From: Rhodococcus sp. 105337
GTDB lineage: Bacteria > Actinomycetota > Actinomycetes > Mycobacteriales > Mycobacteriaceae
Direction of reading: 5' to 3'
Assembly: GCF_012844225.1 (NCBI RefSeq)
Contig: NZ_JABAGQ010000001.1
Location: forward strand, 620,001-684,000
DNA: 64,000 nucleotides
In this document: in pieces, positions 24,084-42,938 of the stretch
Position numbering within the stretch: the first letter of the stretch is position 1
Layout of the letters: every line of letters begins with the position of its first letter
Position numbers and translations under genes: made by a program
The notes under the pieces: model-generated
What the model saw: the letters and a program-made list of their open reading frames with translations, nothing else
Told to the model about the DNA's origin: nothing
Database searches by the model: none

Positions 24084-24124
24084 GTGACCGGACTCACTGT
24101 AGCCATCGGCTACGTTCGCGTCAA
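24084..24124 (-). promoter_or_regulatory. Regulated promoter module (a)
   Basis: Minus-strand promoter: -35 TTGACG (24119-24124), 17-bp spacer, -10 TACAGT (24096-24101). The palindrome GTAGCCATCGGCTAC (24099-24113, perfect six-base arms) covers the spacer end and the -10 start. Immediately downstream is a second dyad GTGA-N6-TCAC (24084-24097). The same 41-bp arrangement occurs four more times in the window. It heads the cyclase-VOC-BVMO-barrel-epimerase-esterase unit. Bound regulator should block polymerase, with release by a pathway metabolite (inference). Confidence 0.8.
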
Positions 24125-24496
24125 CATCCTGGTTTCGATTCGGTTCCACTCGATTCTGCTCACACAGGCATTCCGGCCCGTATCGAAAATCCGCGAAATA
24201 GCGACGGCGGGTGAATGTTTAAGTGCCGTCTCCACGGAGCCGGGAAGCTCCCATTGGCAATTCCGGATCCGCGTGAGCAGCCGGATGCAGACCGGCAGAG
24301 CTCGACGTCGACCGCAGCGTCAACCAGTCGGGAGGCGGAAGATCCGTTCCCCGGATGAAGACGGATTCCGATCGGTGGGCGAGGTCATGTTCGTGCCCGA
24401 AGACCGAACACCATCCCGCCGCAACTCCGTTGTCCTGCTTCTCTTTTCATCGTTCCCGCCCCACGCCCCTGTCACCGCGTGAGCGAACGAAACGTA
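24125..24496. other. Intergenic region between units (a) and (b)
   Basis: About 370 bases between the promoter of unit (a) and the end of the HAPMO-like gene of unit (b). No open frame with coding character, no tRNA and no clear terminator with a U-run was recognised. It presumably holds the 3' untranslated end of unit (b). Confidence 0.6.
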
Positions 24497-26395
24497 CTAC
24501 TGCGCTTCGGTGAAGTCGAAGTGCGACTCGTCCGGGCTCTTGCACAGTTCGTAGTACTCCTCACCGTTCCACGGTGCATTCATCTGCAGCCGGCCGAACT
24601 CGTTGACGTAGTAGTTCTTCTCCATCGCAGAGTTCGGCATGAGGTAGATGAGTTTCTTGGCTTCCTCGTGCAACTGCTCGTTGTACTCGTCGAAGGCGTC
24701 CCTGCGGATGACCATCGACTTCCGGCCCTTCTCGAGCATGCCGACGATGCATTCGGCGATGTAGCGAGTCCAGATCTCGAACCACGTGGGCAGTCCCGCT
24801 CCGCTCGCCACCGGCTGCGAGTTGGGGCCGTACAGCATGAACATGTTGGGGAATCCGGGCACGGTCATGCCGAGATGCGCCTGAGCGCCCTGCGCGGTCC
24901 AGACGTCCTCGAGGCTTGCTCCGCCGAGGCCGTAGTACTGCGTCGGCCAGATGTACTTTTCGGTCTGGAAGCCGACCGCAGCGATGACCAGATCCGTCTC
25001 GCGGGTCTTCCCCTCGGTGGTGACGATCGCGGTATCGGTCATCCGCTCGATCGGCGTCGTGACGAGTTCGACATTGTTCCTCGTCAACGAGGCGTACCAG
25101 TTGTTGTCGACCACCGGGCGCCGCGTCATCGGCGGGTAGTCCGGGACAAGCTTGTCGATGAGGTCCTGGCGGCCGTCGACCTGGTTCGAGATGTAGGCGA
25201 TAAGCATCTCGCGCAGCATGTCGTTGCGCTCGCTGATGTGACCGCCCCCGGCGATCCACTCCTCGTCGGGCATGAGCACATTACGCAGATCGATCGTGCT
25301 CAGTCCGGCAACGTACTTGTTCCAGTTCCAGTAGAAGGGCATGTTCTGGATCAGCCACTGCAGTTCATCGGCGATCGGCACGCCGTAGTTGGTGCGCGGC
25401 GAGATCCACTGCGGCGTCCGCTGGTACACCACTACCGAGTCGGCCTTCTCGGCCACCTTCGACAGGAGCTGGACTCCGGTTGATCCGTTACCGATGACGG
25501 CGACCTTCTTGCCGGCGTACTCGACATCCTCGCTCCACTGGGCGGTGTGCACAATCCGGCCGGTGAATCCGGAAACACCCTCCACCGACAGCTCACGCGG
25601 TGTCGCGAAGACACCGCTCGCGGCGACCACCACGTTCGCTTCGACCTCCGCGACCGAGTCCTCGCCCCGCACGGTCATCGTCCAGCACTGGGTGGTTTCG
25701 TCGAAACGGGCTTCCTGAACGTCGGCGTCGAACCGGATATGTTCGTAGACGCCATATTTGCGCGCTACGTGGTCGATGTACTCTCGGACATCCGACTGCC
25801 GGCCGAAGTACTCGGTCCACGGATACTTCTTTTCGAACGCGTACTCGTAGGTGAAGCTCAGCGTGTCGACACGGACGTCCGGGTAGGTGTTGATGCTCCA
25901 CACCCCGCCGACCTCGGCGCGACGCTCGTAGATCGTGAACGGGATGCCGAGCTGCACGAGCTGCACCCCCATGGCGACACCGGCAAACCCGGCACCGACG
26001 ATCGCGACGTGGTAACCCTCCGGGATCGTCTTCTCCCCGGTCCACTGTGCCTGGAATGGCATGTCCTCGAAGGCCGGGATGTGGTGGCGCATGATCAGGT
26101 CGTCGGGCCCCAGTTCGCGGGCTTCGGCCATCTCGAGCAACTCGACGACTTCGTCGCGCGACGGGATGGGCAGTGCGGGTTCGTAGGGTTCGGTGAGCAG
26201 GTAGTCGACGGCTTTCGCTCGGATGAGTGCGACATCGTGGTCGGAGAACACGATGGCGTCCGTCGTCGGGCCGAAGACACGTTCGGGGGTGATCGCGGCG
26301 ATCTCCGCGTCACGGGTCGCCTGGTACAGCGCCATCCGCAACGCATTCGTGTCGGCGCATTCGACGGCGCGCTCTATGTAGCTACGTCCTGGCAT
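24497..26395 (-). CDS. Baeyer-Villiger monooxygenase, 4-hydroxyacetophenone-monooxygenase-like
   Basis: 632 residues, close to the ~640 of 4-hydroxyacetophenone monooxygenase. As in that enzyme, an N-terminal helical extension of about 125 residues precedes the FAD motif VAIVGAGFAGVAMGVQL (near 130-146). GGVWSINTYPDVRVDTLSFTYEYAF, the fingerprint-like FTGRIVHTAQWS (about 277-288; Ser replaces the final Pro), and IGNGSTGVQLLSKVAEKA (NADPH site) follow. The ATG giving MPGRSYIERAVECAD is preferred to a GTG ten codons upstream. It is the last gene of unit (b). The substrate may be an aryl or alicyclic ketone. Confidence 0.88.
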   Translation of the reverse strand: MPGRSYIERAVECADTNALRMALYQATRDAEIAAITPERVFGPTTDAIVFSDHDVALIRAKAVDYLLTEPYEPALPIPSRDEVVELLEMAEARELGPDDLIMRHHIPAFEDMPFQAQWTGEKTIPEGYHVAIVGAGFAGVAMGVQLVQLGIPFTIYERRAEVGGVWSINTYPDVRVDTLSFTYEYAFEKKYPWTEYFGRQSDVREYIDHVARKYGVYEHIRFDADVQEARFDETTQCWTMTVRGEDSVAEVEANVVVAASGVFATPRELSVEGVSGFTGRIVHTAQWSEDVEYAGKKVAVIGNGSTGVQLLSKVAEKADSVVVYQRTPQWISPRTNYGVPIADELQWLIQNMPFYWNWNKYVAGLSTIDLRNVLMPDEEWIAGGGHISERNDMLREMLIAYISNQVDGRQDLIDKLVPDYPPMTRRPVVDNNWYASLTRNNVELVTTPIERMTDTAIVTTEGKTRETDLVIAAVGFQTEKYIWPTQYYGLGGASLEDVWTAQGAQAHLGMTVPGFPNMFMLYGPNSQPVASGAGLPTWFEIWTRYIAECIVGMLEKGRKSMVIRRDAFDEYNEQLHEEAKKLIYLMPNSAMEKNYYVNEFGRLQMNAPWNGEEYYELCKSPDESHFDFTEAQ

Positions 26396-26435
26396 GGTTG
26401 TTCCAATTCTCGATTCGGGGGGCACGGGGGGCGTG

Positions 26436-28010
26436 TCACTCGTCAGCCGCGCCGGACAGGGCCCGCTGGTCGATGACGAATTGCCGGAGATGCTGCTTGC
26501 GGATCTTCATCGTCGGTGTCTTCGGCATCTCCGAGACGATCACGACGTCCTCGGGAAACTTCGCGGGCGAGATACCGGCGTCACGGCAGTACGTGCGGAG
26601 CGTATCGACGTCGAGGGCCGCTGCGCCGTCCTGCAGTTGGAGAACTGCACAGATGCGCTCACCCGACCGGTCGTCGGGCAGGCCGATGACGGCGACGTCG
26701 GCGACGGCAGAATGGGCCGCGAGGACCTCTTCGATCTCGGTAGGGCTGATCGACTCGCCCTTGCGGATGATCAGGTCCTTCTCCCTGCCGACCAGGACCA
26801 GGTGCCCCTCCGGCTCGAGCTTTCCGGTGTCACCTGTGAACATCCAGCCCTCAGCATCGAAGGGACGGATGATCTCGCCGTCGGCGCGGTACTCCTTGAA
26901 CAGCATCGGGCCGCGCAGCCATACCCGTCCGACCTGGCCGGTGGGCAGTACTTCGTCGTCCTCGGTGCGGATCTGTACCTCGCAACCCAGGACCGGGCGG
27001 CCGGAGGTGGTGGCCAGCTGTTCGACACTGTCGTCCATCCGGGCCGAGGTGATCATCGGACACTCGGTCATGCCGTAGGCATGCAGGATCGGAATGCCCA
27101 TCTCGGCGAGCACGTCCCGGAACAAACTCTCCGGCATCGGCGCTCCCCCGCCGGTCACCATACGCAGGGTCGGAACCACCGGGTTCCCCGGATTCTTCCG
27201 CTGCTCCTCGAGCAGCAGGGCGTAGTGCGGGGTCGATCCGCCGGTGATGGTCACCCCCGTCCGGCGCATCAGCTCCACTGCGGCAGCCGGCGCGTAGACC
27301 TCCATGACCACCAACGACATTCCGGTGGCCAGCGAAGCGATCAGCAGATCGGGACCACCGATATGTGCGTACGGGAAGAAGATGGTGCCGGTGTCGTCGG
27401 CGGTCGCACCGATCGCATCGGCCAGCGCGACACCGCCGGCGATGAGCGTGCCGTCCGTGTGACAGACGCCCTTGGGTGCCGAGGTAGTACCGGAAGTGGT
27501 GTAGATCCAGCGCACCTCGTCGCGGCCGACCGGCGCGGGAGGAAGAGTGGCCGGGTCACCGTCGGGCAGTTCCGAGGAGACAACCATCAGGTTCAGGAGA
27601 TCACCGCTCGCCGCGCGCAATTCCTCGGCCATGGCCCCGTGGTCGAAACCGCGGAACTCCCCCAGGGTGATGAGCCAATCCGACTCGCACTGGGCGATCA
27701 TGGCCCCGACCTCACGTGCCCGATAGAGCGGGATGATCGGGTTCTGGGTCACGCCGAGACGCGACAGCGCCAGGCTGAGCACGATGGTCTCGATGCGTGT
27801 GGGCAGTTGCCAGCTCACCGTGGAGCGGGGTTCGACCCCGCGGGCCAGCAGGCCGGCCGCGACGCGTTCGGCCATGGAGACGACCTCGGTGAAAGTCATG
27901 CGGCGATCGAACTCGTCGATGACGGCGACGGTCTCACCGCTGGTCTCAGCTCGCAGGGCCAGCAGATCCCACAGGGAGACTGCGTCGTTCGGCGCGATGT
28001 CCGAGTTCAC
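26436..28010 (-). CDS. Acyl-CoA synthetase (AMP-dependent ligase)
   Basis: 524 residues of the ANL superfamily. YTTSGTTSAPKGVCHTD is the P-loop, HAYGMTECPM the A5 motif, GWMFTGDTGKLEPEGHLVLVGREKDLIIRKGESISPTEIEEVL the A7-A8 region. The A10 motif reads PKTPTMKIRK; the usual PTGK has Met in place of Gly next to the catalytic lysine. It activates a carboxylic acid intermediate to its CoA thioester before beta-oxidation by the neighbouring dehydrogenases. Its start overlaps the crotonase stop by four bases (unit b). Confidence 0.9.
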   Translation of the reverse strand: MNSDIAPNDAVSLWDLLALRAETSGETVAVIDEFDRRMTFTEVVSMAERVAAGLLARGVEPRSTVSWQLPTRIETIVLSLALSRLGVTQNPIIPLYRAREVGAMIAQCESDWLITLGEFRGFDHGAMAEELRAASGDLLNLMVVSSELPDGDPATLPPAPVGRDEVRWIYTTSGTTSAPKGVCHTDGTLIAGGVALADAIGATADDTGTIFFPYAHIGGPDLLIASLATGMSLVVMEVYAPAAAVELMRRTGVTITGGSTPHYALLLEEQRKNPGNPVVPTLRMVTGGGAPMPESLFRDVLAEMGIPILHAYGMTECPMITSARMDDSVEQLATTSGRPVLGCEVQIRTEDDEVLPTGQVGRVWLRGPMLFKEYRADGEIIRPFDAEGWMFTGDTGKLEPEGHLVLVGREKDLIIRKGESISPTEIEEVLAAHSAVADVAVIGLPDDRSGERICAVLQLQDGAAALDVDTLRTYCRDAGISPAKFPEDVVIVSEMPKTPTMKIRKQHLRQFVIDQRALSGAADE

Positions 28011-28810
28011 GACTTCTCCTTATTTGCATCCGACGGAAGGGGACCAGGTGTCAAGAGCGGGTATCCGGTGCGCAGCAGGGCGTTCGCGTGTCCGTGCCAG
28101 TGGATGTCGAAGGCCGATTGCAATGCGGCCTGCTGGCCCATGATGTCGAGGGTCTGGTTGACGGCGCGCTTGGCGGTGGCCAGGCCCCACGCATCCATCT
28201 CCGCGATCTCGCGCGCCAGTTCCATGGTCTGCGTGCCGAGTTCGTCGAGCGGGACCACCCGGTTCACCATGCCGGCGGCGAACGCTTCGGCCGCGGTGAG
28301 CTTCCGGGCCGTGAACAGCATTTCCTTGGCACGACGAGCACCGAGTTCCCAGGTGTGCGCGTGGTATTCGACGCCACCGACACCGAACTTGACCACCGGG
28401 TCGCTGAAGTAGGTGTTATCGGCCGCGATGATCAGATCGCACGGCCAGATGACGTTGAGGGCACCGGCGACGCAGGCGCCCTGGACAGCTGCGATCGACG
28501 GCTTGGGGACGTCTCGCCACTTGCGGGAAAAGCCGAGATAGTGCTCGGTCTCCCAGCCGTAGGCGCTCTCGAGGGTGGTCTTGCCCTCCTTGAAGTACCC
28601 CGGGGCCGGGGTCTTCAGGTCATGGCCTGCGGAGAAGTGATCGCCGTTGGCGCGCACGACGATCACCTTGACCTCGTCGTCGGCGGCGGCCTGCTGCCAG
28701 CGGGCGTCGAGGTCACGCAGCAGGGACGCATCCTGGGCGTTGTGCTTGTCCGGTCGATTGAGACTGATGACGGCGACGGCGTCGTCGACCCGGTAGTCGA
28801 TGTAGCTCAT
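28007..28810 (-). CDS. Enoyl-CoA hydratase/isomerase
   Basis: 267 residues. VAVISLNRPDKHNAQDASLLRDLD opens the crotonase fold; DHFSAGHDLKTP and GACVAGALNVIWPCDLIIAADNTYFSDPVVKFGVGGVEYHAH form the oxyanion hole and substrate pocket. The usual paired acidic residues of classical hydratases are not obvious (VGGVEYHAH includes one Glu), so isomerase, hydrolase or retro-aldol activity is possible. Four-base overlaps with both neighbours indicate tight coupling inside unit (b). Confidence 0.87.
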   Translation of the reverse strand: MSYIDYRVDDAVAVISLNRPDKHNAQDASLLRDLDARWQQAAADDEVKVIVVRANGDHFSAGHDLKTPAPGYFKEGKTTLESAYGWETEHYLGFSRKWRDVPKPSIAAVQGACVAGALNVIWPCDLIIAADNTYFSDPVVKFGVGGVEYHAHTWELGARRAKEMLFTARKLTAAEAFAAGMVNRVVPLDELGTQTMELAREIAEMDAWGLATAKRAVNQTLDIMGQQAALQSAFDIHWHGHANALLRTGYPLLTPGPLPSDANKEKS

Positions 28811-29889
28811 CGGCCGGCCCCTGTGTAGATGTGGTCGAGGGCCGCGACGATGTCGGCGTCGTTGCGTGTGGCCGAGCCGAAGTCGAACTGCCAGCGCTTC
28901 GCGGCGTCGGTGAACAGGTGCACATTCGACTCGACCATGTAGCCGATGCCGGCGTGGACCTCGTGCGCCGAGTGGACTATCTCCAGTGCAGCTTTCGCCG
29001 CCTGTTTACACATCAGACCGATGTGGGGCTGCGGATCGAGGCCGGTGTCGAGGGCGGCGGCGGCCGCCCGCGTGTGCACCGAGGTGAAGTGCGCAGCGAT
29101 CGCGATGTCGGTGCACAGGTATTGCACCGCCTGGAATCGGCCGATCGGTCCACCGAACTGGTGTCGTTGCTGCGCGTACAGCACGGTCATGTCCAGCAGT
29201 TTCAATCCGGCACCGTAGACCTGCGCGGCGCGCAGCACCGCTCCGCGCTGCGCTGCGACCTCGACGGCGCGGTCGGCGTCGAGGCCGCGGGCCAGCACCG
29301 CCGCGTCGGTGACCGGTGTGCTGTCGAACCTCACTGCGAACAAGGGGTGCCCACCCATGTTCGGCATCGCTTCGACACCGGCCACCGAGCTCGGCTGCAC
29401 CACAGCCACAACGCTTTCCCTACCGGCTGCGTACACGAGGTAACTGTCGGCGCTGTCGGCGTGGTCCACGGCCAACGCGACTCCGTTGAGCACGCCGTTC
29501 TCGTACGTCACCGTCGAGCCCCATTCGGGGGACGGGAACACCGGGACCACCACGACCTCGCCGTTGCCGATCCGCTCGGCGAGGCTCGTCGCCTCGTCGG
29601 TGCCGATGACCAGTGCGGCGTCGCGGGACATCGTCAACTCGAGCAGCGGGGTGGCGGCCAGCGCCCTGCCCATCTCGACAAAGATGCCGGCGATCGTCGC
29701 AAGTGACGGACTATCGGCGTCGGCGCCGGTCGGATCACCGAGTTGCAGCCAGCCGAGTTCGGCGAACTGCGCGACCTGTTCCACCAACGGAACAGTGTTG
29801 GATCGGTCTTCGAGCGGCGAGTACCGCGCGAACACCGACTTGCTCACATCTGCGAGGGCAGTGAAGTCCTCGCCCCATGCCAATTCCAT
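28807..29889 (-). CDS. Acyl-CoA dehydrogenase, divergent subunit
   Basis: 360 residues of acyl-CoA dehydrogenase fold but diverged: the N-terminal FAD segment lacks the usual TEPxxGSD block, while the C-terminal domain is clear (GAVLRAAQVYGAGLKLLDMTVLYAQQRHQFGGPIGRFQAVQYLCTDIAIAAHF and HSAHEVHAGIGYMVESNVHLFTDAAKRW). It sits next to a full-length dehydrogenase. This arrangement is known for the alpha2beta2 heteromeric dehydrogenases of actinobacterial steroid side-chain degradation, where one subunit loses cofactor residues. I infer the same here. Confidence 0.87.
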   Translation of the reverse strand: MELAWGEDFTALADVSKSVFARYSPLEDRSNTVPLVEQVAQFAELGWLQLGDPTGADADSPSLATIAGIFVEMGRALAATPLLELTMSRDAALVIGTDEATSLAERIGNGEVVVVPVFPSPEWGSTVTYENGVLNGVALAVDHADSADSYLVYAAGRESVVAVVQPSSVAGVEAMPNMGGHPLFAVRFDSTPVTDAAVLARGLDADRAVEVAAQRGAVLRAAQVYGAGLKLLDMTVLYAQQRHQFGGPIGRFQAVQYLCTDIAIAAHFTSVHTRAAAAALDTGLDPQPHIGLMCKQAAKAALEIVHSAHEVHAGIGYMVESNVHLFTDAAKRWQFDFGSATRNDADIVAALDHIYTGAGR

Positions 29890-29898
29890 CTTCAGCTC

Positions 29899-31056
29899 CT
29901 ATCGGGGCAGGCCGAGGCCCCGCGTCGCGAGCACCATCCGCTTGAGTTGGGACGTTCCTCCGGCGTGGTTGGCAAAGGACTGCCGGTACCACGCCTCAGG
30001 CCTTCCACTGAGGGGGGCGTACGCCGACCCCGACTGCAGTTGACTGGTCGGGCCGAGCACTCGGTCGTAGATCTGAGCGAACAGCGGCTCGTACTCCTTG
30101 GCCGCGACCTGCTGGACGCCGCCGCCCCAGGGGGTCAGCCGACCGTGGGCATTGTCGCCGATGATCTCGTAGGCGAGCAGGCGCTGGGTCTGGACGATGC
30201 CTGCGAGTTCGGCAAGGTCGGCTTGCACGTGCGGGTCGTCGAGCTTGCCCGGGACCGCCTTGCAGTGCTCGATGAGATCGCGCAGACGTGCTTCTTGCAT
30301 CGCGTAGATCGGTTCGACGGTCCCCGAGGCGTAGAAAGCTCGCATGATGTATTGCCAGCCCTTGCCTTCTTCACCGATCAGCGAGGTCTCCGGCACTCGA
30401 ACGTGATCGAGGTAGGTGCTGGACTGGACGCCACCGCCGTAGTTGCGCATCGGATGGAGGGTTACGCCGGGACTCTTCAGGTCGACCACGAAGATGCTGA
30501 TCGCATCACGCGAGCCGGCGTCGGTCGCCGTGCGGGCAGCCACATACAGTACGTCGGACATCGGCCCCCAGGAAGTGAACGCCTTCTCTCCGGTGATGAC
30601 CCACTCGTCACCCTCCCGGACGGCTTTCGTCCGTAGGGAGCCGAGATCGGAGCCCGCTCCCGGCTCGGTGAGCCCTTCGGCCCAGAGAGTCCGCATGTTC
30701 GCGATGTCCGGCAGGAGACGCTTCTTCTGCTCCTCGGTGCCGCCCACCAGGATCGTGCCCGCGGCGAGGAAGATTCCGACGGAATTGACCATCGGCGCGT
30801 CGGCCGCGTACAGCTCCTCGAGGAGGATCTGGTTCGCGATCGGGGGCAGCTCCTTGCCGCCGTACTCCTTCGGCCAGGTCAGACCGATCCACCCTTTGGC
30901 GGCGACCTTCTTGCTGAATTCGACGGCGATCGCCCACTGATCGGGTGCATCGTCGAACTCGGGGTTGAAGGCGTGTCCCTGGGGCAGTTCGGCGTCGAGG
31001 AACTCCCTGATCTCGGCCCGCCAAGCCTCGTGTTCCGCTGTCAGTGTGGGTCTCAT
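29899..31056 (-). CDS. Acyl-CoA dehydrogenase, FAD-binding partner subunit
   Basis: 385 residues. GWIGLTWPKEYGGKELPP, WAEGLTEPGAGSDLGSLRTKAVREGDEWVITGEKAFTSWG (FAD-binding block), and the C-terminal FANHAGGTSQLKRMVLATRGLGLPR are typical. The start MRPTLTAEHEAWRAEIREFLDAELPQGHAF matches dehydrogenases acting on bulky CoA esters. The Rieske-oxygenase stop overlaps its start by four bases, and it is nine bases upstream of the divergent subunit. Probably forms a heterotetramer with that subunit and unsaturates a ring-derived acyl-CoA. Confidence 0.9.
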   Translation of the reverse strand: MRPTLTAEHEAWRAEIREFLDAELPQGHAFNPEFDDAPDQWAIAVEFSKKVAAKGWIGLTWPKEYGGKELPPIANQILLEELYAADAPMVNSVGIFLAAGTILVGGTEEQKKRLLPDIANMRTLWAEGLTEPGAGSDLGSLRTKAVREGDEWVITGEKAFTSWGPMSDVLYVAARTATDAGSRDAISIFVVDLKSPGVTLHPMRNYGGGVQSSTYLDHVRVPETSLIGEEGKGWQYIMRAFYASGTVEPIYAMQEARLRDLIEHCKAVPGKLDDPHVQADLAELAGIVQTQRLLAYEIIGDNAHGRLTPWGGGVQQVAAKEYEPLFAQIYDRVLGPTSQLQSGSAYAPLSGRPEAWYRQSFANHAGGTSQLKRMVLATRGLGLPR

Positions 31057-32099
31057 GAGACGTTGTCCGCCTGAAATTCGTCGGTGCCTGCGGTCTGCTC
31101 GGCGGCGCCGTAACCGAGGTGGCCCTCGGGGTAGAAGCGGCGAGCCCACTGGCGGATGTCACGGAAGCCTGCCGCCTCTGCGGTCGCCAGGCCCGGCGGC
31201 TCGGTGTATCGCTGGTGTTCCCAGATAGCGATGTCGGCCTCGAGCTGGCCGATCGCATTGCGCTGGCGTTTCGTCACTCGTGCGTCGTCCTGGCCGTCCT
31301 CCTTGCTCGCCCACGCGGAAAAGCGCACGATCGAACGCTCGTCGTCGACAGGGGTCACCGCGGTCAGGGAGCAGATGGCGCCGACGCCGTCTGCGTACGA
31401 GTAGCCCAGTCCCAGACCGAGGAGTGACGCTCTGGTCCGGCCCTCGACGAGTTCGAATTCGCCGTCGGCGCCGCGACGCTTGAAGTGCAGGGCAAGTTCG
31501 GTTTTGAAGTCGTACTCACCGAACTCGCGGTGTACCACCGTAGGGATCTCGTCGGCGCGGTGGACGTACTTGAAGTGCGCGAAGTCGACGCCGTTCTCGG
31601 CGGCGTACTGCGGGTGGATCGGCAGCGCGGCCGACTCGAAACGGCCGGCCTCCGCCGGCTCGTGGTAATCGTTCGCCGAACCGCAACCCGGAAAAAGGTC
31701 GAAGACGCTGGGCACCTCGTACAGCGGTTCGCGGCCGTCGACGTCGTGCCAGATATACATGATCCCGTCGCTTTCGGCCGTAGACCAGGTACCGATCTTG
31801 CGGACTCGGTTCGCAGCCTTCTGGTACGGAATGCAGGTGTTGCGGCCTTCCTGGTTCCATTGCCAGCCGTGGAACGGGCATCGGATGTCGTCGCCGGAAA
31901 CTGTGCCACCGTGGCCCATATGGGCGCCGAGGTGCTCACAGTATGCGTTCAGAACCACCAGGCGGCCGCTCTGGGCACGGTAAGCGACGAGGTCCTGACC
32001 GAAGTAGCGCAGCGGCTTCACATCGCCGATCTCGAGGTCGGCGGACCAGCCGATCTGGAACCACCCCGTCGGCTTCATCGATAACGCCATGGGCGACAC
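31053..32099 (-). CDS. Rieske [2Fe-2S] non-heme iron oxygenase (KshA/DAF-36-like)
   Basis: 348 residues. The Rieske cluster motif YCEHLGAHMGHGGTVSGDDIRCPFHGW puts ligands at C54, H56, C74 and H77. The mononuclear iron site is ENGVDFAHFKYVH, with D172, H175 and H180. GWFQIGWSADLEIGDVKPLRYFGQDLVAYR is the usual N-terminal strand set. The organisation resembles 3-ketosteroid 9alpha-hydroxylase oxygenase and related sterol or ring hydroxylases. A GTG start five bases after AGGAGG is chosen; ATG codons three and seven codons later are alternatives. A KshB-like reductase in unit (d) is its likely electron donor. Confidence 0.88.
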   Translation of the reverse strand: MSPMALSMKPTGWFQIGWSADLEIGDVKPLRYFGQDLVAYRAQSGRLVVLNAYCEHLGAHMGHGGTVSGDDIRCPFHGWQWNQEGRNTCIPYQKAANRVRKIGTWSTAESDGIMYIWHDVDGREPLYEVPSVFDLFPGCGSANDYHEPAEAGRFESAALPIHPQYAAENGVDFAHFKYVHRADEIPTVVHREFGEYDFKTELALHFKRRGADGEFELVEGRTRASLLGLGLGYSYADGVGAICSLTAVTPVDDERSIVRFSAWASKEDGQDDARVTKRQRNAIGQLEADIAIWEHQRYTEPPGLATAEAAGFRDIRQWARRFYPEGHLGYGAAEQTAGTDEFQADNVS

Positions 32100-33772: not shown

Positions 33773-33793
33773 TCCCTCGACGCGCCGAATGTC

Positions 33794-35204: not shown

Positions 35205-35315
35205 GTGCCACCCACAACGTTGCCGAGGGAGTCGTCGGGGATGTTCGCCCACACCGAGCGGCCCAGCCTGTCCGCCGCGCGCGACAGCGTTGCCACACGG
35301 GATCGTCATGTATAG
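35205..35315 (+). CDS. Possible 36-residue leader ORF coupled to the SnoaL-like gene
   Basis: A GTG five bases after GGAGG opens a 36-codon frame (VPPTTLPRESSGMFAHTERP onward) whose stop overlaps the ATG of the next gene. The bases around this start (CAGTTC...GGAGGATGAAGTG) closely match those around the Rieske-oxygenase start at 32099. It could be a coupling leader peptide or the scar of a lost gene. No homology is recognised. Confidence 0.3.
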   Translation: MPPTTLPRESSGMFAHTERPSLSAARDSVATRDRHV

Positions 35316-35808: not shown

Positions 35809-35943
35809 ATCGGGAATACACTCCTCCGCTCGTTGCGGAGGTCTCGAGCAGCTGCGCGGTCCGCTCACAAGACCCGGCTGCAACGACTCGGAACCGAACT
35901 TCCCCGGTGCACACACCGGAGGACACAACCGAACAGGATCGAT

Positions 35944-37320
35944 ATGAACTCACCTGTGAGCGCGCCCTCACGCACCCTGGTGCGCAGGGCGTCGATGGCC
36001 GGCTTCTTCGGAACTGCCGTCGAAGCCTACGACTTCATGGTTTTCACCTTCCTCATCGCCTATCTGTCTCCTCTGTTCTTCCCCAGCGACAATCCTGCGG
36101 CCGGCATTCTGAGCTCGTTGGTGGTCCTCGGCACCGGATTCCTTGCGCGCCCGATCGGCGGTATCGTTTTCGGCCGGATCGGTGACCGATACGGTCGACG
36201 TTTCGCATTGATCGTCACCATATCCGGCATGGGTGGAGCCACAATCCTGATGGGACTGTTGCCGACGCACGCCACCGTCGGAATCCTGGCCCCGGTGCTG
36301 CTCGTTCTCACGCGGTTGATGCAGGGCTTCTTCGCCGGCGGCGAACAGATCGGTTCGGCCACATTCGTCACCGAGCACGCGTCTGCCAAGAACTACGGCA
36401 TCCTGAGCGCGATGACCCCGGTGGGGTTCGCCTTCGGCGGCACCCTTGCCCCATTGGTCGTCGCCCTCACGACCTCGCTGTCCTCGGAGGAATGGATGGC
36501 CAACTGGGGCTGGCGCCTTCCCCTTCTCATGTCGCTCCCACTGATGCTGTACGTGCTGTTTCTGCGTGCCCGGCTCGAAGAATCACCCGAGTTCAAGGAA
36601 CTCGCCGACAAGCACGAGGTGCAGTCCTCACCGCTACGTTCGGTCGTCAAGCGATACCCTGCGACCTTGCTGCGCGTGATCGCCCTGAGCACATCGGTTC
36701 TCGCGATCGGCTACGTGGTTCCCGCGTACATGCCGCTGTTCCTGCAGCAGGAGGTCGGTATGGCCCCGGGTACCACAGCTTGGGTGGCCACCGCCGGATC
36801 GACGTTTGCCATCGTCGTCGGATTCGCCTCCGGGTTCATGATCGACAGAAGCGGCCGGAGGAACACCATGATCCTGGGGTTGGGCATCATCCTCGTGTCG
36901 ATGTTCCCGATCATGTACCTGATCAAGGCGACCGGCGGCAATCTGTTCGTCACCGCGCTCGGCCACATGCTCCTCGTCGGCCTCGCGGGTGCCTCCGCTG
37001 TCCCTGTTTACGCGACACTCACCTCGGCCTTCCCAGCTGCGGTGCGCTACACCGGCGCTGCGATCGGATTCGGTCTCGGTTCGGCTATCGGCGGCGGGGC
37101 GGGGCCTTACCTCGCGGGCAAACTCACCGCGCTGACAGGGAACTCGTATGCTGCCTCCATCGTCGTCGGCGCCGCGGCCCTCCTGGGAATCGTGGTGATC
37201 GCCACCATGCCGAACAGCAACGGTAACGCCGCGCCCGAAGCAAGTCTCACGACAGGCGACATCGCTTCCGCCGACTCGGATTCGACCGAAGACTCTTCCC
37301 TGTCTCCGAAGATGGCGTGA
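35944..37320 (+). CDS. MFS transporter, metabolite:H+ symporter (MHS) type
   Basis: 458 residues with about twelve hydrophobic segments. FFGTAVEAYDFMVFTFLIAYLSPLFFPS, FLARPIGGIVFGRIGDRYGRRFALI (loop 2-3 motif), LMQGFFAGGEQIGSATFVTEHA and the late GLAGASAVPVYATLTSAFPAAVRYTGAAIGFGLGSAIGGG are typical of the MHS subfamily that imports organic acids and related metabolites. A hydrophilic acidic C-tail (about 40 residues) is cytoplasmic. The start MNSPVSAPSRTLVRRAS follows AGGATCGAT. It probably imports the substrate or an acidic intermediate of the cluster. Confidence 0.9.
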   Translation: MNSPVSAPSRTLVRRASMAGFFGTAVEAYDFMVFTFLIAYLSPLFFPSDNPAAGILSSLVVLGTGFLARPIGGIVFGRIGDRYGRRFALIVTISGMGGATILMGLLPTHATVGILAPVLLVLTRLMQGFFAGGEQIGSATFVTEHASAKNYGILSAMTPVGFAFGGTLAPLVVALTTSLSSEEWMANWGWRLPLLMSLPLMLYVLFLRARLEESPEFKELADKHEVQSSPLRSVVKRYPATLLRVIALSTSVLAIGYVVPAYMPLFLQQEVGMAPGTTAWVATAGSTFAIVVGFASGFMIDRSGRRNTMILGLGIILVSMFPIMYLIKATGGNLFVTALGHMLLVGLAGASAVPVYATLTSAFPAAVRYTGAAIGFGLGSAIGGGAGPYLAGKLTALTGNSYAASIVVGAAALLGIVVIATMPNSNGNAAPEASLTTGDIASADSDSTEDSSLSPKMA

Positions 37321-37357
37321 CATGCATCGTTCGCGCCCACCCTCGATCGGAGGACAC

Positions 37358-38176
37358 ATGGCTCAGGACTGTTCACCGCCGGGCGATCGCGCCGAACTCG
37401 ACCGGATCGTCGATTACCGCGGTCGGTTCGACCTCTCCCGACGCAGATACCTTGTGCTCGGTGGCGGGCAAGGAATGGGGCGGCAGGTCTCCCATGCACT
37501 CGCTCAAATTGGCGCCACAGTGATTGTCGTCGACCTCGACCGGGACCGTGCCGACCACGTATGCGCAGAGATCGGCCCAGCGGCCACGGCCGAGCAGGTC
37601 GATGCCACCGAAGACGCCGACATGGCCGCATTGGCCGAGCGCGCGGGGGAACTCGACGGCGTCGTCGACGTCATCGGTATGGCGAGATACGCGCCCCTGC
37701 TCGACATCACCGATGACGACTGGCGGTGGGAAGAGGGCATCGTCCTGCGCCATGCGGTGCTCGCGCTCAGACATTTCGGTGCTCGGTTGCGCGACCGCGG
37801 CGAAGGTTCCATAACGTTCGTCTCGTCGGTGTCCGGGCTCGGCAGCTCACCGGTGCACGCTGCCTACGGCGTCTACAAGGCTGCGCTCGGCTCCCTGGTC
37901 CGATCCGCGGCAATAGAGCTGGGACCTTCCGGTATTCGCGTCAATGCAGTGGCTCCCGGATTCGTCGTCACACCCAGGATCTCGGCGATCCTCGACTCCG
38001 CGGCGCTCGAGAACACCCGCTCACAGATACCACTTCAGCGGTTGACACTGCCGGCCGACGTCGCGAGTGCCCTGACCTTTCTGGTGAGCGACCTCGCCCG
38101 GACGATCACCGGCCAGGTGATGGTGGTCGACGGCGGAGCGACGAACAAGTACCCGTACGACATGTCGGGCTTCTGA
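37358..38176 (+). CDS. Short-chain dehydrogenase/reductase
   Basis: 272 residues. YLVLGGGQGMGRQVSHALAQIGATVIVVDLDRDRA gives the cofactor motif (GGGQGMG) and an acidic residue favouring NAD(H). VSSVSGLGSSPVHAAYGVYKAALGSLVRSAAIELGPSGIRVNAVAPGFV carries Ser and the YxxxK pair. NNAG is replaced by a VIGMARYAP-like segment. The ATG follows GGAGGA with good spacing; an ATG twelve codons earlier is weaker. Last gene of unit (c). Confidence 0.88.
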   Translation: MAQDCSPPGDRAELDRIVDYRGRFDLSRRRYLVLGGGQGMGRQVSHALAQIGATVIVVDLDRDRADHVCAEIGPAATAEQVDATEDADMAALAERAGELDGVVDVIGMARYAPLLDITDDDWRWEEGIVLRHAVLALRHFGARLRDRGEGSITFVSSVSGLGSSPVHAAYGVYKAALGSLVRSAAIELGPSGIRVNAVAPGFVVTPRISAILDSAALENTRSQIPLQRLTLPADVASALTFLVSDLARTITGQVMVVDGGATNKYPYDMSGF

Positions 38177-38216: not shown

Positions 38217-38257
38217 TTGACGAGAAAGTAGCCAGTGGCTACTGTTCCCTCAGTCGC
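38217..38257 (+). promoter_or_regulatory. Regulated promoter module (d)
   Basis: -35 TTGACG (38217-38222), 17-bp spacer, -10 TACTGT (38240-38245). Palindrome GTAGCCAGTGGCTAC at 38228-38242 has perfect arms. The downstream dyad position (38244-38257) is degenerate, matching GT...TCGC only. It drives the esterase-SDR-BVMO-reductase unit. Confidence 0.8.
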
Positions 38258-38333
38258 AGTGATCGCCGCCACTTCCAGCCGTTGCCAGTCGAGGTCGACC
38301 GGGCGCTCGCCCTATTGCACAAGGAGATGAATC

Positions 38334-39272
38334 ATGTCCTACGCCGTCGATCCCGCGTACCGGCCGATGATGGGATTCCTCCCCGAACTCGACGTCTCCG
38401 ACGCCGAAAAGGCGCGCGCAGTGATCCTTTCGATGAGGATGAAAGATCCGATGGCAGCCGTACCGGCAGGAATCGTGGTAGACCACCGGTCAATGCCGAC
38501 AACCGACGGATCCGAAATCGATCTCGTCGTGTTCCGCCCGGAAGACCCCGTCGGGCAACCACTTCCCTGCATCCTCTACTTCCACGGCGGAGGATTCATC
38601 TTCGGCGACGCTGCCACCGATGTCCGGGTTCCGTCGGCACTGGCCGCCGACCTCGACGCGATGGTGGTCTCCGTCAACTATCGACTCGCGCCGGAGCACC
38701 CCTTCCCGACACCGTTCGACGACGCCTTCGACGCTCTGAGCTGGATTGCAGGTGACAACGGCCTCGGGATCGACCCGACCCGGATCGTCCTCGCCGGGAT
38801 CAGCGCGGGTGCCGGACTCGCGGCGGCGGTCGCGCTCAAGGCCCGCGACGTCGGCGGTCCCGCGGTGATCTTCCAAGCCCTGGACTCCCCCGTCCTCGAC
38901 GACCGCCTGCTCACGACCTCAGCGACCGAGTACATCGATTCCCCGCTGTGGAACCGGGAGAACGGAATCGACAGCTGGCGTCACTATCTCGGGGACCCTG
39001 ACCGGAGTGTGACGTCTGAATACGCCGCCCCCGCACGGGCGCGCGACCTCAGCGGGTTGCCCCCGGCCTACATTGCGGTCGCCTCCTTCGACCCGCTTCG
39101 GGACGAGGGAATCGACTACGCACAGCGGTTGACGCAGGCGGGCGTGCCCACCGAATTGCATCTCTACCCGGGGACCTTCCACGGATCATCGGGAGTGTTC
39201 CCACAGGCTGCGATCTCCCAGCGGATCGACGCCGACTACACCGCCGCCATCCGGCGCGCGTTGACCAGCTGA
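38334..39272 (+). CDS. Alpha/beta hydrolase, hormone-sensitive-lipase type esterase
   Basis: 312 residues. PCILYFHGGGFIFGDAATDVRVPS has the HGGG oxyanion motif (about 84-87). The nucleophile elbow reads LAGISAGAGLAAAV, Ser157, with Ile in place of the usual Asp of GDSAG. SVNYRLAPEHPFP is a family hallmark and LYPGTFHGSSG supplies the catalytic His near 286. An AAGGAG box precedes the ATG. First gene of unit (d), 69 nt upstream of an SDR and ahead of a CHMO-like BVMO, so it probably hydrolyses the BVMO lactone. Confidence 0.88.
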   Translation: MSYAVDPAYRPMMGFLPELDVSDAEKARAVILSMRMKDPMAAVPAGIVVDHRSMPTTDGSEIDLVVFRPEDPVGQPLPCILYFHGGGFIFGDAATDVRVPSALAADLDAMVVSVNYRLAPEHPFPTPFDDAFDALSWIAGDNGLGIDPTRIVLAGISAGAGLAAAVALKARDVGGPAVIFQALDSPVLDDRLLTTSATEYIDSPLWNRENGIDSWRHYLGDPDRSVTSEYAAPARARDLSGLPPAYIAVASFDPLRDEGIDYAQRLTQAGVPTELHLYPGTFHGSSGVFPQAAISQRIDADYTAAIRRALTS

Positions 39273-39300
39273 ACCACGAGCATCCCGGAATCGGAGAGTC

Positions 39301-40026
39301 ATGTCGCATCGCTTCGAAGGAAAGGTCGCGATCGTCACCGGTGGCGCACGCGGACAGGGCGAACAGATCGTTCGGGCGCTGGCGCGCGAAGGCGGCTCGG
39401 TGGTGATCGGCGACGTTCTCGACGACCTGGGACAGACCGTCGCCGACGACGTCGGAGACGCCGTCGTCTACACCCATCTCGACGTGACCGCCCCGGAAGA
39501 CTGGGCAGGTGCCGTCGCCCTGGCGACCTCGACCTTCGGAGGCCTCGACGTCCTCGTCAACAACGCGGCGATCTACCGCAAGCAGTTGCTCAAGGACGAA
39601 ACCGCCGCCGACCTCGACAAAGTCCTCGCCGTCAACCTGCACGGGCCGTTCCTCGGCATCCAGGCCGTCGCCCCCGCGATGCGCGCCCGGGGTGGTGGCT
39701 CGATCGTGAACGTCTCGTCGCTCGCCGGAACGACGTCCTATGCGGGCCACGGCTCGTACAGCATGTCGAAGTGGGCCCTGCGCGGACTGACGAGGACCGC
39801 AGCGATCGAGCTCGAAGCGTCGAAGATTCGGGTGAATGCCGTGCTGCCCGGCAACATTCGGACCGGCATGTCGCCGACCACCGCATCCAGCGATACCCCG
39901 ACCGGCCTCAAGCGTCAGGCCGACCCGCAGGAGACCGCCAACGTCGTGGTCTTCCTCGCCTCGGACGACGCGTCCTTCGTCAACGGCACCGATGTCGTAG
40001 CGGACGGCGGCTCCCTGCTCGGGTAG
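39301..40026 (+). CDS. Short-chain dehydrogenase/reductase, hydroxysteroid-dehydrogenase-like
   Basis: 241 residues. GKVAIVTGGARGQGEQIVRALAREGGSVVIGDVLDD gives TGGxxxxG and an acidic NAD determinant. NNAAIYRKQLLKDET, NVSSLAGTTSYAGHGSYSMSKWALRGLTRTAAIEL (catalytic Ser, YxxxK) and LPGNIRTGM follow. The GARGQG turn and overall length resemble 3alpha/20beta-hydroxysteroid dehydrogenases. It would produce the ketone for the next gene, a BVMO. Confidence 0.9.
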   Translation: MSHRFEGKVAIVTGGARGQGEQIVRALAREGGSVVIGDVLDDLGQTVADDVGDAVVYTHLDVTAPEDWAGAVALATSTFGGLDVLVNNAAIYRKQLLKDETAADLDKVLAVNLHGPFLGIQAVAPAMRARGGGSIVNVSSLAGTTSYAGHGSYSMSKWALRGLTRTAAIELEASKIRVNAVLPGNIRTGMSPTTASSDTPTGLKRQADPQETANVVVFLASDDASFVNGTDVVADGGSLLG

Positions 40027-40112
40027 CGGTCGCCATCCGCGATTCGGTTCCCCTTCTTTCTCATCCGGCCGCAGCGCGTGCCGCTGAGCCAGATTCGATC
40101 CTTGGAGGAAAC

Positions 40113-41786
40113 ATGTCCATCTCGACCCCGGAAGCCGGCCCTACCGCCGAACACTTCGACGTTGTCGTCATCGGCGCGGGATTCAGCGGAATGTACGCGC
40201 TGCATCGTCTCCGCCAGCAGGGCCGTCGAGTCGTCTGTGTGGAAGCGGGCGACGGTGTGGGCGGCACCTGGTACTGGAACCGCTACCCCGGTGCCCGCGT
40301 GGACATCGAGAGCATGCAGTACTCGTACTCCTTCGACGAAGAGCTTCAGCAAGAATGGTCGTGGTCGGAACACTTCTCTCCGCAACCGGACTTGGAGGCA
40401 TACGCCAACCACGTCGCCGACCGCTTCGACCTGCGCGAGGACATACGGTTCGAAACTCGTGTCAACGAGCTGACATTCGACGACACCGTGGACAAATGGA
40501 CCGTCGGCACCGCTTCCGGCGACCGCTTCGTGGCCACATACGTGATCGCGGCAACCGGCAGCCTCGACGTCTCCAACGTCCCCGACCGGCCCGGTCTGGA
40601 TCGCTTCCGCGGCCAGGCCTACCACACATCACGATGGCCCAAGGAGGGCGCCGAACTCGCCGGCAAGCGCGTAGGGCTGATCGGCACCGGGTCGACCGGC
40701 ATCCAGATCACGCCGGAAATCGCCGCGGTCGCCGAGCACCTCACGGCCTTCCAGCGGACCCCGAACTTCAGTCTCCCCGCGCGGAACCGGAGACTGGATC
40801 CGGACTACGAGCGGGAGTGGAAGGCCGACTACCCCGAGCGGCGCAAGCAGATCCTGGGCACACACGGCGCGGTGCTGATGAGCAATGCCGCCGAGCAGCG
40901 CTCGATCTTCGACTACACCGCGGAAGAACGCGAAGAGGTGATGGAGCGAGCGTGGAACGCCCGGAACGGCCTCGAGTTCATCCGCACGTTCACCGACACC
41001 TCCAGCGACCCGAAGGCGAACGAGATACTCGCCGAGTTCGTGCGCAACAAGATCCGGTCCATCGTCCACGACCCGGAGACCGCTGAACTCCTGTGCCCCA
41101 AGACATATCCGATCGGTGGCAAGCGGATCTGCATCGACTCCGGCTACTACGAGACGTTCAACCGGGACAACGTGACCCTGGTCGACATACGGACCCACCC
41201 CATCGAGGAGGTCACCGAGTCGGGCATTCGCACCACCGAGGCAGAGCATGACCTCGACGTGATCATCTTCGCCACCGGCTTCGACGCGATGACCGGTTCG
41301 ATGCTGAGGATGGACCCGACCGGAGTCGACGGTGCACGACTCGCCGACCATTGGGCCGACGGACCGAGGACCGTCTTCGGCCTGATGACCGCCGGATTCC
41401 CCAACCTGTTCATGGTGCACGGCCCCGGTAGCCCGTCGGTTCTGGCACAGATGATCACCACAGGCGAATGGCAGGTCGACTGGATCCTGCGGACCATCGA
41501 CCATCTCGACGAGAACGGAATCTCCCGATTCGGTGTCACCCCCGCCCAGGAAAGCGAATGGGCCGGTGAAGTGGACACCGCCGCCTCTCGCACGATGCAT
41601 GCCCGTACCGACTCCTGGTACACGGGCGCGAACATCCCCGGCAAGCCGCGGGCGCTGCTGATGTACGTGGGCGGTTTCCAGCGGTACTCCGACCTGTGCA
41701 CCCGCGCCGCGGAAGAAGGATACACGGGATTCGAGATGAAGCAACGCGCACTGACCCTGGGTCCGAACCACCAGACCCCACAGTGA
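40113..41786 (+). CDS. Baeyer-Villiger monooxygenase, cyclohexanone-monooxygenase-like
   Basis: 557 residues, the usual CHMO-class length. FAD motif VVVIGAGFSGMYALHRL (GAGFSG near 21-26); GVGGTWYWNRYPGARVDIES; canonical fingerprint FRGQAYHTSRWP at 165-176; NADPH motif LIGTGSTGIQITPEIA near 189-204; IFATGFDAMTGSMLRMD and GPRTVFGLMTAGFPNLFMVHGPGSPSVL in the C-terminal half. The ATG follows GGAGGAA. It converts a cyclic ketone to a lactone with NADPH and O2. Of the three BVMOs in the window, only this one has the complete consensus. Confidence 0.92.
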   Translation: MSISTPEAGPTAEHFDVVVIGAGFSGMYALHRLRQQGRRVVCVEAGDGVGGTWYWNRYPGARVDIESMQYSYSFDEELQQEWSWSEHFSPQPDLEAYANHVADRFDLREDIRFETRVNELTFDDTVDKWTVGTASGDRFVATYVIAATGSLDVSNVPDRPGLDRFRGQAYHTSRWPKEGAELAGKRVGLIGTGSTGIQITPEIAAVAEHLTAFQRTPNFSLPARNRRLDPDYEREWKADYPERRKQILGTHGAVLMSNAAEQRSIFDYTAEEREEVMERAWNARNGLEFIRTFTDTSSDPKANEILAEFVRNKIRSIVHDPETAELLCPKTYPIGGKRICIDSGYYETFNRDNVTLVDIRTHPIEEVTESGIRTTEAEHDLDVIIFATGFDAMTGSMLRMDPTGVDGARLADHWADGPRTVFGLMTAGFPNLFMVHGPGSPSVLAQMITTGEWQVDWILRTIDHLDENGISRFGVTPAQESEWAGEVDTAASRTMHARTDSWYTGANIPGKPRALLMYVGGFQRYSDLCTRAAEEGYTGFEMKQRALTLGPNHQTPQ

Positions 41787-41835
41787 AATTCACGAACGCG
41801 ACGCAGCAGTCAACGGAGAGCGCAGGCGACCGAAA

Positions 41836-42879
41836 GTGAGCACCTTGCAGACCGTCGGTGTCGGGTACGAACTGTCCGTGACCGAGGTCATCGAAGAGAC
41901 CCCCGATGCGAAGTCGATCGTACTGCGCAAGCCGGAGAACTCTCGTGACCTGTTCGCGTACCGGCCCGGTCAATTCCTGACCGTCCGGATACCGAGCGAC
42001 CGCACCGGGCATGTCGCCCGGTCGTATTCGCTGTCGAGCACACCCCACGTCGACGACCAGTTGAAGGTCACCGTCAAACGCACTGCGGACGGGTACGGAT
42101 CGAATTGGTTGTGCGACAACGTGGAACCGGGGAACTCTCTCATCGTCCTGCCACCCTCGGGCCGCTTCACGCCGACGGACTTCACGAACGACTTCCTACT
42201 GTTCGCGGCGGGGAGCGGCATCACGCCGATCATCTCGATCCTGAAGACCGCCCTGCTCGGGTCCGACCGTTCGGTCATGCTGTTCTACGCCAATCGCGAC
42301 CGCAACTCGGTGATATTCCACAGCGAACTCGACGAGTACGCCGCGAAGTTCCCCGACCGGCTGACGATCCGATACTGGTTCGACGACGTGCACGGCCTCC
42401 CTTCCCAGGAAGGGCTCGCGGCACTGGCGTCCGACCACTTGTCTCGAGAAGTATTTGTCTGCGGCCCTGTACCTTTCATGGACAGCGTGGCGGAAAGCAT
42501 GCGGTCGGCCGGCGTACCGCCGGAGCGTCATCATCAGGAAGTGTTCGTCTCGATCTCGGGCGATCCCTTCGAAGCTCCCCGGCCGATCGTCGACGACAAT
42601 CCTGCCTCGGCGGTCGAAACAGTCGTACATCTGGACGGCGAGTCACATCGTTTCGAGTGGGCGAGCAGCAACACGCTCGTCGATGTGTTGCTGGACCGTG
42701 GTGTCGACGTCCCGTTCTCCTGCCGATCGGGTGAGTGCGGTTCCTGTGCGTGCACAGTGATTTCGGGCAAGGTGGTGATGGAAAATTCGGACATCCTCGA
42801 CCCGTCCGATGTCGCCGAAGGCTACGTCCTCGGGTGCCAAGCGCGACCCGTCTCGGGCCCCATCGAGATCGAGTTCTGA
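41836..42879 (+). CDS. Oxygenase reductase, KshB-like (FAD/NAD(P)H plus plant-type [2Fe-2S])
   Basis: 347 residues from GTG. The FAD motif is RSYSLSSTP, the NAD(P)H region FAAGSGITPIISILKTAL and VFVCGPVPFMD, and the C-terminal plant-type ferredoxin domain has CRSGECGSCAC with ligands C296, C301, C304 and C334. This order (FNR then ferredoxin) matches KshB, the reductase of 3-ketosteroid 9alpha-hydroxylase. It probably feeds electrons to the Rieske oxygenase of unit (b), which lacks its own reductase. Last gene of unit (d). Confidence 0.9.
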   Translation: MSTLQTVGVGYELSVTEVIEETPDAKSIVLRKPENSRDLFAYRPGQFLTVRIPSDRTGHVARSYSLSSTPHVDDQLKVTVKRTADGYGSNWLCDNVEPGNSLIVLPPSGRFTPTDFTNDFLLFAAGSGITPIISILKTALLGSDRSVMLFYANRDRNSVIFHSELDEYAAKFPDRLTIRYWFDDVHGLPSQEGLAALASDHLSREVFVCGPVPFMDSVAESMRSAGVPPERHHQEVFVSISGDPFEAPRPIVDDNPASAVETVVHLDGESHRFEWASSNTLVDVLLDRGVDVPFSCRSGECGSCACTVISGKVVMENSDILDPSDVAEGYVLGCQARPVSGPIEIEF

Positions 42880-42897
42880 TCCTCGCTCCCACAGATG

Positions 42898-42938
42898 TTG
42901 ACGCTACTGCAGCCGACGGCTACGGTGATCCTCATCGC
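42898..42938 (+). promoter_or_regulatory. Regulated promoter module (e)
   Basis: -35 TTGACG (42898-42903), 17-bp spacer, -10 TACGGT (42921-42926). Palindrome GCAGCCGACGGCTAC at 42909-42923 has one mismatch. Second dyad position reads GTGA-N6-TCGC (42925-42938). It drives the old-yellow-enzyme unit, leader about 150 nt. This is the weakest of the five copies. Confidence 0.72.

Follow-up and report, generated by a model that had tools for sequence, protein, structure and literature searches.

Which protein, acting through which DNA elements, controls the catabolic genes that stand behind five promoter modules of one layout in Rhodococcus sp. 105337? The modules lie in a stretch of 64,000 nucleotides (contig NZ_JABAGQ010000001.1, positions 620,001 to 684,000 of the forward strand), here called the window and numbered from its first letter. 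An earlier note on this DNA had described, in each 41-bp module, a TTGACG -35 box, a 17-bp spacer, a TACNGT -10 box and the palindrome GTAGCC-N3-GGCTAC in constant register, and had proposed that they define a regulon. Our analysis points, on balance and with modest confidence, to a substrate-induced catabolic regulon under a two-headed, ligand-responsive repressor that would act on the palindrome and -10 box as well as on the -35 box, with possible input from CRP. The candidate repressor is the protein encoded at 33794-34822, in which an N-terminal winged-helix domain is fused in front of a TetR domain.

All five modules were recovered where the note had placed them, two on the minus and three on the plus strand, and read along transcription as TTGACG-N5-GTAGCC-N3-GGCTAC-NGTGA-like. 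The boxes and the spacer were as described (-35 TTGACG in 5/5; -10 TACAGT in two, TACTGT in two and TACGGT in one), as was the palindrome: three copies are exact, those at 35012 and 42909 each carry a single mismatch in one arm, and all end within the -10 box, on its third base. We also noticed a second dyad, GTGA-N6-TCAC, absent from the earlier note, at or just after the predicted transcription start; it is exact in three modules and has one mismatch in two.

Module 1, 24084..24124, minus strand: -35 TTGACG at 24124-24119, palindrome at 24113-24099, -10 TACAGT at 24101-24096; heads unit 1.
Second dyad of module 1, 24097-24084, minus strand: GTGAGTCCGGTCAC, exact copy.
Module 2, 32272..32312, minus strand: -35 TTGACG, palindrome at 32301-32287, -10 TACAGT; heads the Rieske/acyl-CoA unit (unit 2).
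Second dyad of module 2, 32285-32272, minus strand: GTGATGCCAGTCAC, exact copy.
Module 3, 35001..35041, plus strand: -35 TTGACG, palindrome GTGGCCAATGGCTAC at 35012-35026 (one arm mismatch), -10 TACTGT; heads the SnoaL/MFS/SDR unit (unit 3) and lies in the divergent gap shared with the regulator gene.
Second dyad of module 3, 35028-35041, plus strand: exact copy.
Module 4, 38217..38257, plus strand: -35 TTGACG, exact palindrome at 38228-38242, -10 TACTGT; heads the esterase/SDR/Baeyer-Villiger monooxygenase (BVMO)/reductase unit (unit 4).
Second dyad of module 4, 38259..38272, plus strand: GTGATCGCCGCCAC, 7/8 letters, displaced, 15 bp farther downstream than in the other modules.
Module 5, 42898..42938, plus strand: -35 TTGACG, palindrome GCAGCCGACGGCTAC at 42909-42923 (one arm mismatch), -10 TACGGT; heads the OYE/MaoC unit (unit 5).
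Second dyad of module 5, 42925-42938, plus strand: GTGATCCTCATCGC, 7/8 letters.

With up to three mismatches the palindrome has 45 matches in the window, against 23.5 +/- 4.6 in shuffled sequences, none of which reached 45 (0/100). Across the 4.46-Mb genome the exact palindrome occurs three times, every time in a module; at up to one mismatch it occurs in 15 distinct places, fewer than the 29 of a reversed control pattern, so that the palindrome alone is not special at that stringency. The composite TTGACGN5GTAGCCN3GGCTACNGTGA, with up to three mismatches, matches exactly the five modules in the whole genome, and its reversed control matches nothing. The full-genome scan that the note had suggested therefore places 5/5 composite matches inside the cluster, and not at random positions unlinked to related genes. 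For the composite, a chance origin is rejected by the shuffles and by the controlled genome scan. The statement that the motif is seen nowhere else in the window holds for the composite; it does not hold for the palindrome, of which one further copy with one mismatch lies at 42811-42825. We rejected this copy as an operator: it falls inside a reading frame and lacks promoter boxes, and thus looks like chance.

The regulator gene and the site occur together in relatives. In the genus group (n=18 genomes) the regulator is present in six genomes, and the composite at up to one mismatch only in those six. In the family set (n=401) 16 genomes carry the regulator at E<=1e-20, and a site at up to one mismatch was found in 16/16 of these and in 0/385 of the others (hypergeometric 6e-29, ignoring relatedness); sites with two mismatches occur in 22/385 regulator-less genomes, approximately the level of the reversed control (27/401 genomes, counted by hand). 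In the class-wide sample (n=394) the regulator was found only in the window's own genome. A separate search also found Nocardia vermiculata. Among 49 distinct sites (one overlapping reverse match in genome G057 was merged), 47 lie within 25 kb of the regulator gene. Of the two others, one precedes an SDR gene in G187 at a distance of 322 kb and one a SnoaL/solute-binding-protein gene pair in G057 at 35 kb; they suggest that the regulon may extend further in some species. Behind the sites the same units recur across genomes (Rieske oxygenase, two acyl-CoA dehydrogenases, enoyl-CoA hydratase and ligase; cyclase and first BVMO; SnoaL/MFS/SDR; esterase and third BVMO with reductase; OYE and MaoC), with some genomes lacking some units. 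This comparison with orthologous clusters, also suggested by the note, supports the proposal that the modules define a regulon: a shared site stands before functionally linked operons and nowhere else in the genome, and orthologous operons are headed likewise.

Three peculiarities were seen among these relatives. G012 has a second, diverged copy of the fused regulator (C51:244788-245825, locus L022; 59% identity) about 4 kb from the first. In G010 the regulator is split into two overlapping pieces (C16:21794-22796, loci L021/L023), through a frameshift or a sequencing error. In G121 (contig C10, L118, 5761 and 5975) and G243 (contig C7, L119, 12256 and 12470) exact palindromes spaced by 214 bp form divergent pairs in the DNA that separates the Rieske/acyl-CoA from the alcohol-dehydrogenase unit; in each pair one site has a shifted -35 box and an 18-bp spacer.

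Could a regulator encoded outside the cluster bind the palindrome, the fused protein controlling something else? It would agree with this that in the 300 bp upstream of 17 regulator genes, inspected by eye, no module faces the gene (nine show a divergent module) and that the cluster travels as a block. Among the matches listed, no Rieske operon without the regulator was found; Rieske orthologues of at least 66% identity occur in precisely the 16 regulator genomes, and the next-best homologues, of at most 51% identity, sit in other genomes, so that co-occurrence does not tell the regulator apart from the other cluster genes. The perfect partition of sites between genomes with and without the regulator argues against an outside protein, as does the position of the fused regulator, still 2-6 kb from the nearest site even in four distant members (47-52% identity). 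Furthermore, none of the genes scanned between 17861 and 46439, besides the regulator, matches a DNA-binding family (one 264-residue protein matched no family at all). We regard an outside regulator as very unlikely.

Turning to the protein within the cluster, its parts are as follows.

Predicted regulator, 33794..34822, minus strand: 342 residues, with a winged helix-turn-helix at about 13-124, a low-confidence linker at about 125-148, a TetR DNA-binding domain at 159-205 and a C-terminal part.

The TetR_N domain (PF00440) scores 54.2 bits (cut-off 24) over residues 159-205. The N-terminal domain (residues 13-124) is a separate winged helix of the Rv2175c/antitoxin type, predicted with a mean local distance difference test score (pLDDT) of 88 over residues 1-125. 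A profile of this domain and its homologues matches Rv2175c in the PDB at 1e-9 and MbcA weakly (E 0.21), and the predicted model superposes on Rv2175c (PDB 2kfs) with a template modelling score of 0.71 (Foldseek E 6.6e-4, 117 columns); the window's N-terminal fragment alone gave no match among PDB sequences. Among the 31 homologues aligned, seven match the Pfam antitoxin domain PF09722 and five PF23125 at E<=0.1 (best 1e-3 and 5.6e-5, respectively); the window protein matches neither. At E<=0.01 the domain has one other copy in the same genome, in an antitoxin (C1:343700; BLASTP 31% identity over 101 residues) whose next gene encodes a RES toxin; the regulator itself has no such neighbour, its neighbours being an alcohol dehydrogenase and a SnoaL-like gene. 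The C-terminal part is predicted to be helical (pLDDT mostly <60), and TetR proteins lead the best 50 Foldseek matches listed for it (best E 1.1e-3). A LacI-type regulator, guessed from the length of 342 residues, was rejected by Pfam, and a tandem TetR protein like Mce3R was rejected as well, there being a single TetR_N stretch and an N-terminal domain of another fold. Outside the family, Sinomonas humi (L059, 6298-6423) has a weak match to the N-terminal helix-turn-helix only (45%, regulator residues 17-57, 5e-4).

What might the extra head read? Toxin-antitoxin operons, if autoregulated, should show in their upstream DNA what the domain binds. We identified at least 46 matches to homologous antitoxin-type genes, 30 with loci, and read 28 upstream regions, leaving out the fragments L162 and L163; the regions are related by descent, and the presence of a RES gene was checked at the own-genome operon only. 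In 22 of the 28 regions TTGAC occurs three to five times, usually arranged as two TTGAC-N4-TTGAC pairs, 86 copies in all against a background of 0.057 per 130 bp. The other six regions lack it: that of L155, a partial gene with a stop, and those of L161 and L164-L167, whose matches begin at residue 43-52 and which have no copy within 260 bp upstream. Where the helix was read (17/28), the 12 genes with TTGAC all have S-R/K-Q and the five without TTGAC lack it; in L160, preceded by TTGAC-N4-TTGAC, the helix SRQAINKRV is identical to that of the regulator. The window's own genome contains such an operon (L137 1240-2393; C1 about 343,440-344,600), with a Rv2175c/Xre-like antitoxin and a RES toxin headed by four TTGAC in two pairs. 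These arrays before genes with homologous domains make the TTGAC of the regulon -35 box a good candidate site for the extra head.

The sites themselves were compared base by base. In 516 kb of cluster DNA from 17 genomes we collected 60 palindromes with up to one mismatch, of which 54 have the promoter frame; the six dropped are the coding copy in the window, two similar copies in L060/L062 and three with the -35 box shifted by one base. Each site was read on the strand with the better promoter match, and removal of near copies left 44 nonredundant sites. In these, the informative positions are TTGACG, the palindrome, NGTGA and GTCAC, and both flanks carry little information; the conservation of GTGA is partly by construction because of this choice of strand and because the GT of the -10 box belongs to it. 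Over all 54 sites, the -35 box begins with TTGAC in 52 and has G as sixth base in 52, and the preceding base is G or A in every one (54/54).

A one-headed protein could also account for much of this: the TetR domain alone would read the palindrome, TTGACG would be only a -35 box, and the N-terminal domain would serve protein-protein contact or be an antitoxin-like relic. TTGAC is indeed a canonical sigma-70-type -35 sequence, a 15-bp palindrome suffices as a TetR-family operator, and the spacing between TTGAC and palindrome is set by the promoter itself in most sites. The N-terminal helix-turn-helix is, however, nearly as conserved as that of the TetR domain (mean column identity 0.79 vs 0.83), with S27, R28, Q29, A30 and N32 (helix SRQA-N) invariant in 17 aligned regulators, from which the two-piece G010 protein was excluded; the TTGAC arrays at genes with homologous domains, and the constant G or A before TTGAC, which is not expected of a -35 box alone, also speak for a second reading head. 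We consider the one-headed alternative unlikely, if deserving of attention. We put forward tentatively, as a serious possibility, that fusion of a toxin-antitoxin-type autorepressor domain with a TetR sensor gave a protein that recognises the -10-overlapping palindrome with its TetR head and the -35 box with its antitoxin-type head. The -35 box would then be promoter element and operator at once at every promoter of the regulon.

The second dyad seems to be a separate element. Three exact copies of GTGA-N6-TCAC exist in the window (24084, 32272 and 35028), all in modules; with up to one mismatch there are 31 copies against 30.0 expected, which makes the one-mismatch dyads at 38259 and 42925 weak when taken singly. 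Over the 54 sites, 42 have the dyad (at least 7/8 letters) in fixed register, starting from the last two bases of the -10 box, and in six it is shifted 12-22 bp downstream (five of these are esterase promoters, module 4 included); shuffled downstream DNA reached seven or more letters in 10 of 2000 trials. As the 6-bp gap is kept when the pair moves, we read it as an independent dyad. Genome-wide, GTGAN5GTCACG has 16 matches against seven for the control, and a rough test places seven of the 16, module 2 among them, in apparently intergenic DNA. Some own-genome dyads (L127, L125, L129 and L124) lie near promoter-like boxes at genes named by eye as multicopper oxidase, AlkB-like, thiolase and cyclase-like; at L127 the layout is similar and the operator differs, the dyad being preceded by another near-palindrome, ATACCGTATGGTAT.

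The genome encodes a CRP-family protein (C4:113759; 445 bits over 224 residues to PDB 3d0s, the Mycobacterium tuberculosis CRP). In the part of PMC5327559 consulted, a Rhodococcus jostii consensus, GTGANNTGNGTCAC, found upstream of genes raised in nutrient limitation, is assigned to CRP as putative sites. The second dyad fits this consensus; unlike those sites as excerpted there, it lies at the predicted start beside a repressor operator. Against the stricter M. tuberculosis CRP consensus given in the consulted part of PMC4005916 (GTGnnAnnnnnCACA), none of the five module dyads combines an A at position 6 with the terminal CACA. From its sequence, we take the dyad to be a putative CRP-type site that would give the regulon a possible CRP input. 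It might instead complete a three-part operator, bound by the N-terminal heads of the regulator, as the resemblance of GTGAC to TTGAC, the fixed register in most modules and the misfit to the mycobacterial consensus would suggest; we judge this quite improbable, since the two half-sites keep their gap when displaced, as for an independent dimer site, a similar dyad recurs in the genome away from the palindrome, and the R. jostii consensus, as far as that source was consulted, is matched.

Putting these elements together, we hypothesize that the five modules are the promoter-operators of one substrate-induced catabolic regulon repressed by the protein of 33794-34822. A TetR-type dimer would sit on the 15-bp palindrome, covering the spacer and the -10 box, and its extra winged helices may contact the adjacent TTGACG, which is also the -35 box; without inducer, the dimer across both boxes would block polymerase at all five promoters. 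A pathway compound entering the TetR ligand domain would release the protein, and a sigma-A-type polymerase would then start within the second dyad, where CRP, near the start, might add general carbon or nutrient control.

Several points weigh against this reading. Besides the two given above for an outside regulator (no module pointing at the regulator gene, and a cluster that travels as a unit), the conservation of TTGAC has a second explanation because TTGAC is also an ordinary -35 sequence, and the promoter-frame filter favoured it. The base after TTGAC in the antitoxin arrays is G in only 42/86 copies, unlike in the regulon sites. The dyad is missing from 6/54 sites and, as said, misfits the mycobacterial CRP consensus, and confidence in the full-length model is low for the ligand domain (mean pLDDT 63.5).

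TetR-family repressors such as KstR and KstR2 are well known from actinobacterial catabolic regulons. Like them, the present system has several operons of one pathway, one candidate repressor, an approximately 15-bp palindrome overlapping promoters and a TetR_N domain; it differs in the extra N-terminal DNA-binding-type domain, in the joining of the putative operator to TTGACG and a CRP-type dyad, and in the palindrome GTAGCC-N3-GGCTAC itself. Mce3R of M. tuberculosis, by the consulted part of PMC11667970, is a two-headed single-chain repressor of genes implicated in cholesterol metabolism and lipid transport. It thus resembles the present proposal in having two DNA-reading heads in one chain, and differs, as described there, in its two fused TetR repeats and nonpalindromic operator, whereas here one TetR domain is joined to a head of another fold and the core is palindromic. 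Rv2175c (PDB 2kfs) corresponds to the whole N-terminal domain by profile and predicted fold, which is here fused to a TetR domain. For MbcA, the consulted part of PMC7291234 reports that two arginines of helix 3 are needed for autorepression and proposes binding to GACAAA direct repeats; relatives of the regulator domain, among them the C1:343700 antitoxin with its homologous domain, have TTGAC direct repeats, a different word in a similar arrangement. The regulator differs from the MbcA/Xre/RES-type antitoxins in having no adjoining RES toxin gene, and MbcA itself is a weak match.

We found no description of this regulator or motif in the part of the open-licence literature searched; the system is apparently an undescribed catabolic regulon of TetR type, marked by the second DNA-binding-type domain fused to its candidate regulator and by sites that combine promoter and operator. 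The 54 natural examples specify each element of this compact promoter part to the single base, and a candidate regulator is in hand. If the two-head reading is true, a DNA-binding domain of toxin-antitoxin type was recruited to metabolic control, and a repressor can include the -35 box in the DNA that it recognises. The same logic would apply to comparable fusions, the upstream DNA of extra-domain homologues telling what the domain binds.

The genes behind the modules are the following.

Unit 1, 23070..23963, minus strand: putative cyclase/hydrolase (PF04199), start assigned in this analysis.
Unit 1, 22573..23040, minus strand: glyoxalase-fold protein, start assigned in this analysis.
Unit 1, 20614..22458, minus strand: Baeyer-Villiger-type flavoprotein monooxygenase, scoring under the cut-off of its nearest NCBIfam model (NF045818).
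Possible continuation of unit 1, 17861..20516, minus strand: the 264-residue protein without family, NAD-dependent epimerase/dehydratase, alpha/beta hydrolase.
Unit 2, 31053..32099, minus strand: KshA-like Rieske oxygenase.
Unit 2, remainder, 24497..31149, minus strand: two acyl-CoA dehydrogenase subunits, enoyl-CoA hydratase, acyl-CoA ligase, second flavoprotein monooxygenase.
Between module 2 and the regulator, 32642..33712, plus strand: Zn alcohol dehydrogenase, with no module of its own.
Unit 3, 35095..38176, plus strand: SnoaL-like protein, MFS metabolite/H+ symporter, SDR.
Unit 4, 38334..42879, plus strand: esterase (Abhydrolase_3), SDR, phenylacetone/steroid-monooxygenase-like BVMO (probable start 40113), PaaE-type reductase.
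Unit 5, 43042..46439, plus strand: OYE-family reductase, MaoC hydratase, polyketide-cyclase-like protein, SDR.

The five units are thus headed by modules as the earlier note had it; its count of 19 catabolic genes applies if unit 1 consists of two genes, and rises to as many as 23 otherwise. The best solved relatives of the Rieske protein are 3-ketosteroid 9-alpha-hydroxylases, and the third BVMO (unit 4) is close to phenylacetone and steroid monooxygenases. Judging by these relationships, the pathway would act on a ring-containing ketone or alcohol, perhaps terpenoid or steroid-like; as a clue to the substrate, no close published counterpart of such a cluster was found in the searched part of the open-licence literature. 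Three Baeyer-Villiger-like flavoprotein monooxygenases, a Rieske oxygenase and an ene-reductase-family enzyme would presumably be produced together when the substrate is present.

Elsewhere in the window, positions 49923-53961 hold another, smaller gene group that encodes a CoA-transferase, two acyl-CoA dehydrogenases and a TetR regulator of the ordinary kind (206 residues); the genome scan at up to three mismatches placed no composite module in it. Unlike the window's alcohol dehydrogenase, the alcohol dehydrogenase/SDR pair of G057, G121 and G243 has a site of its own.

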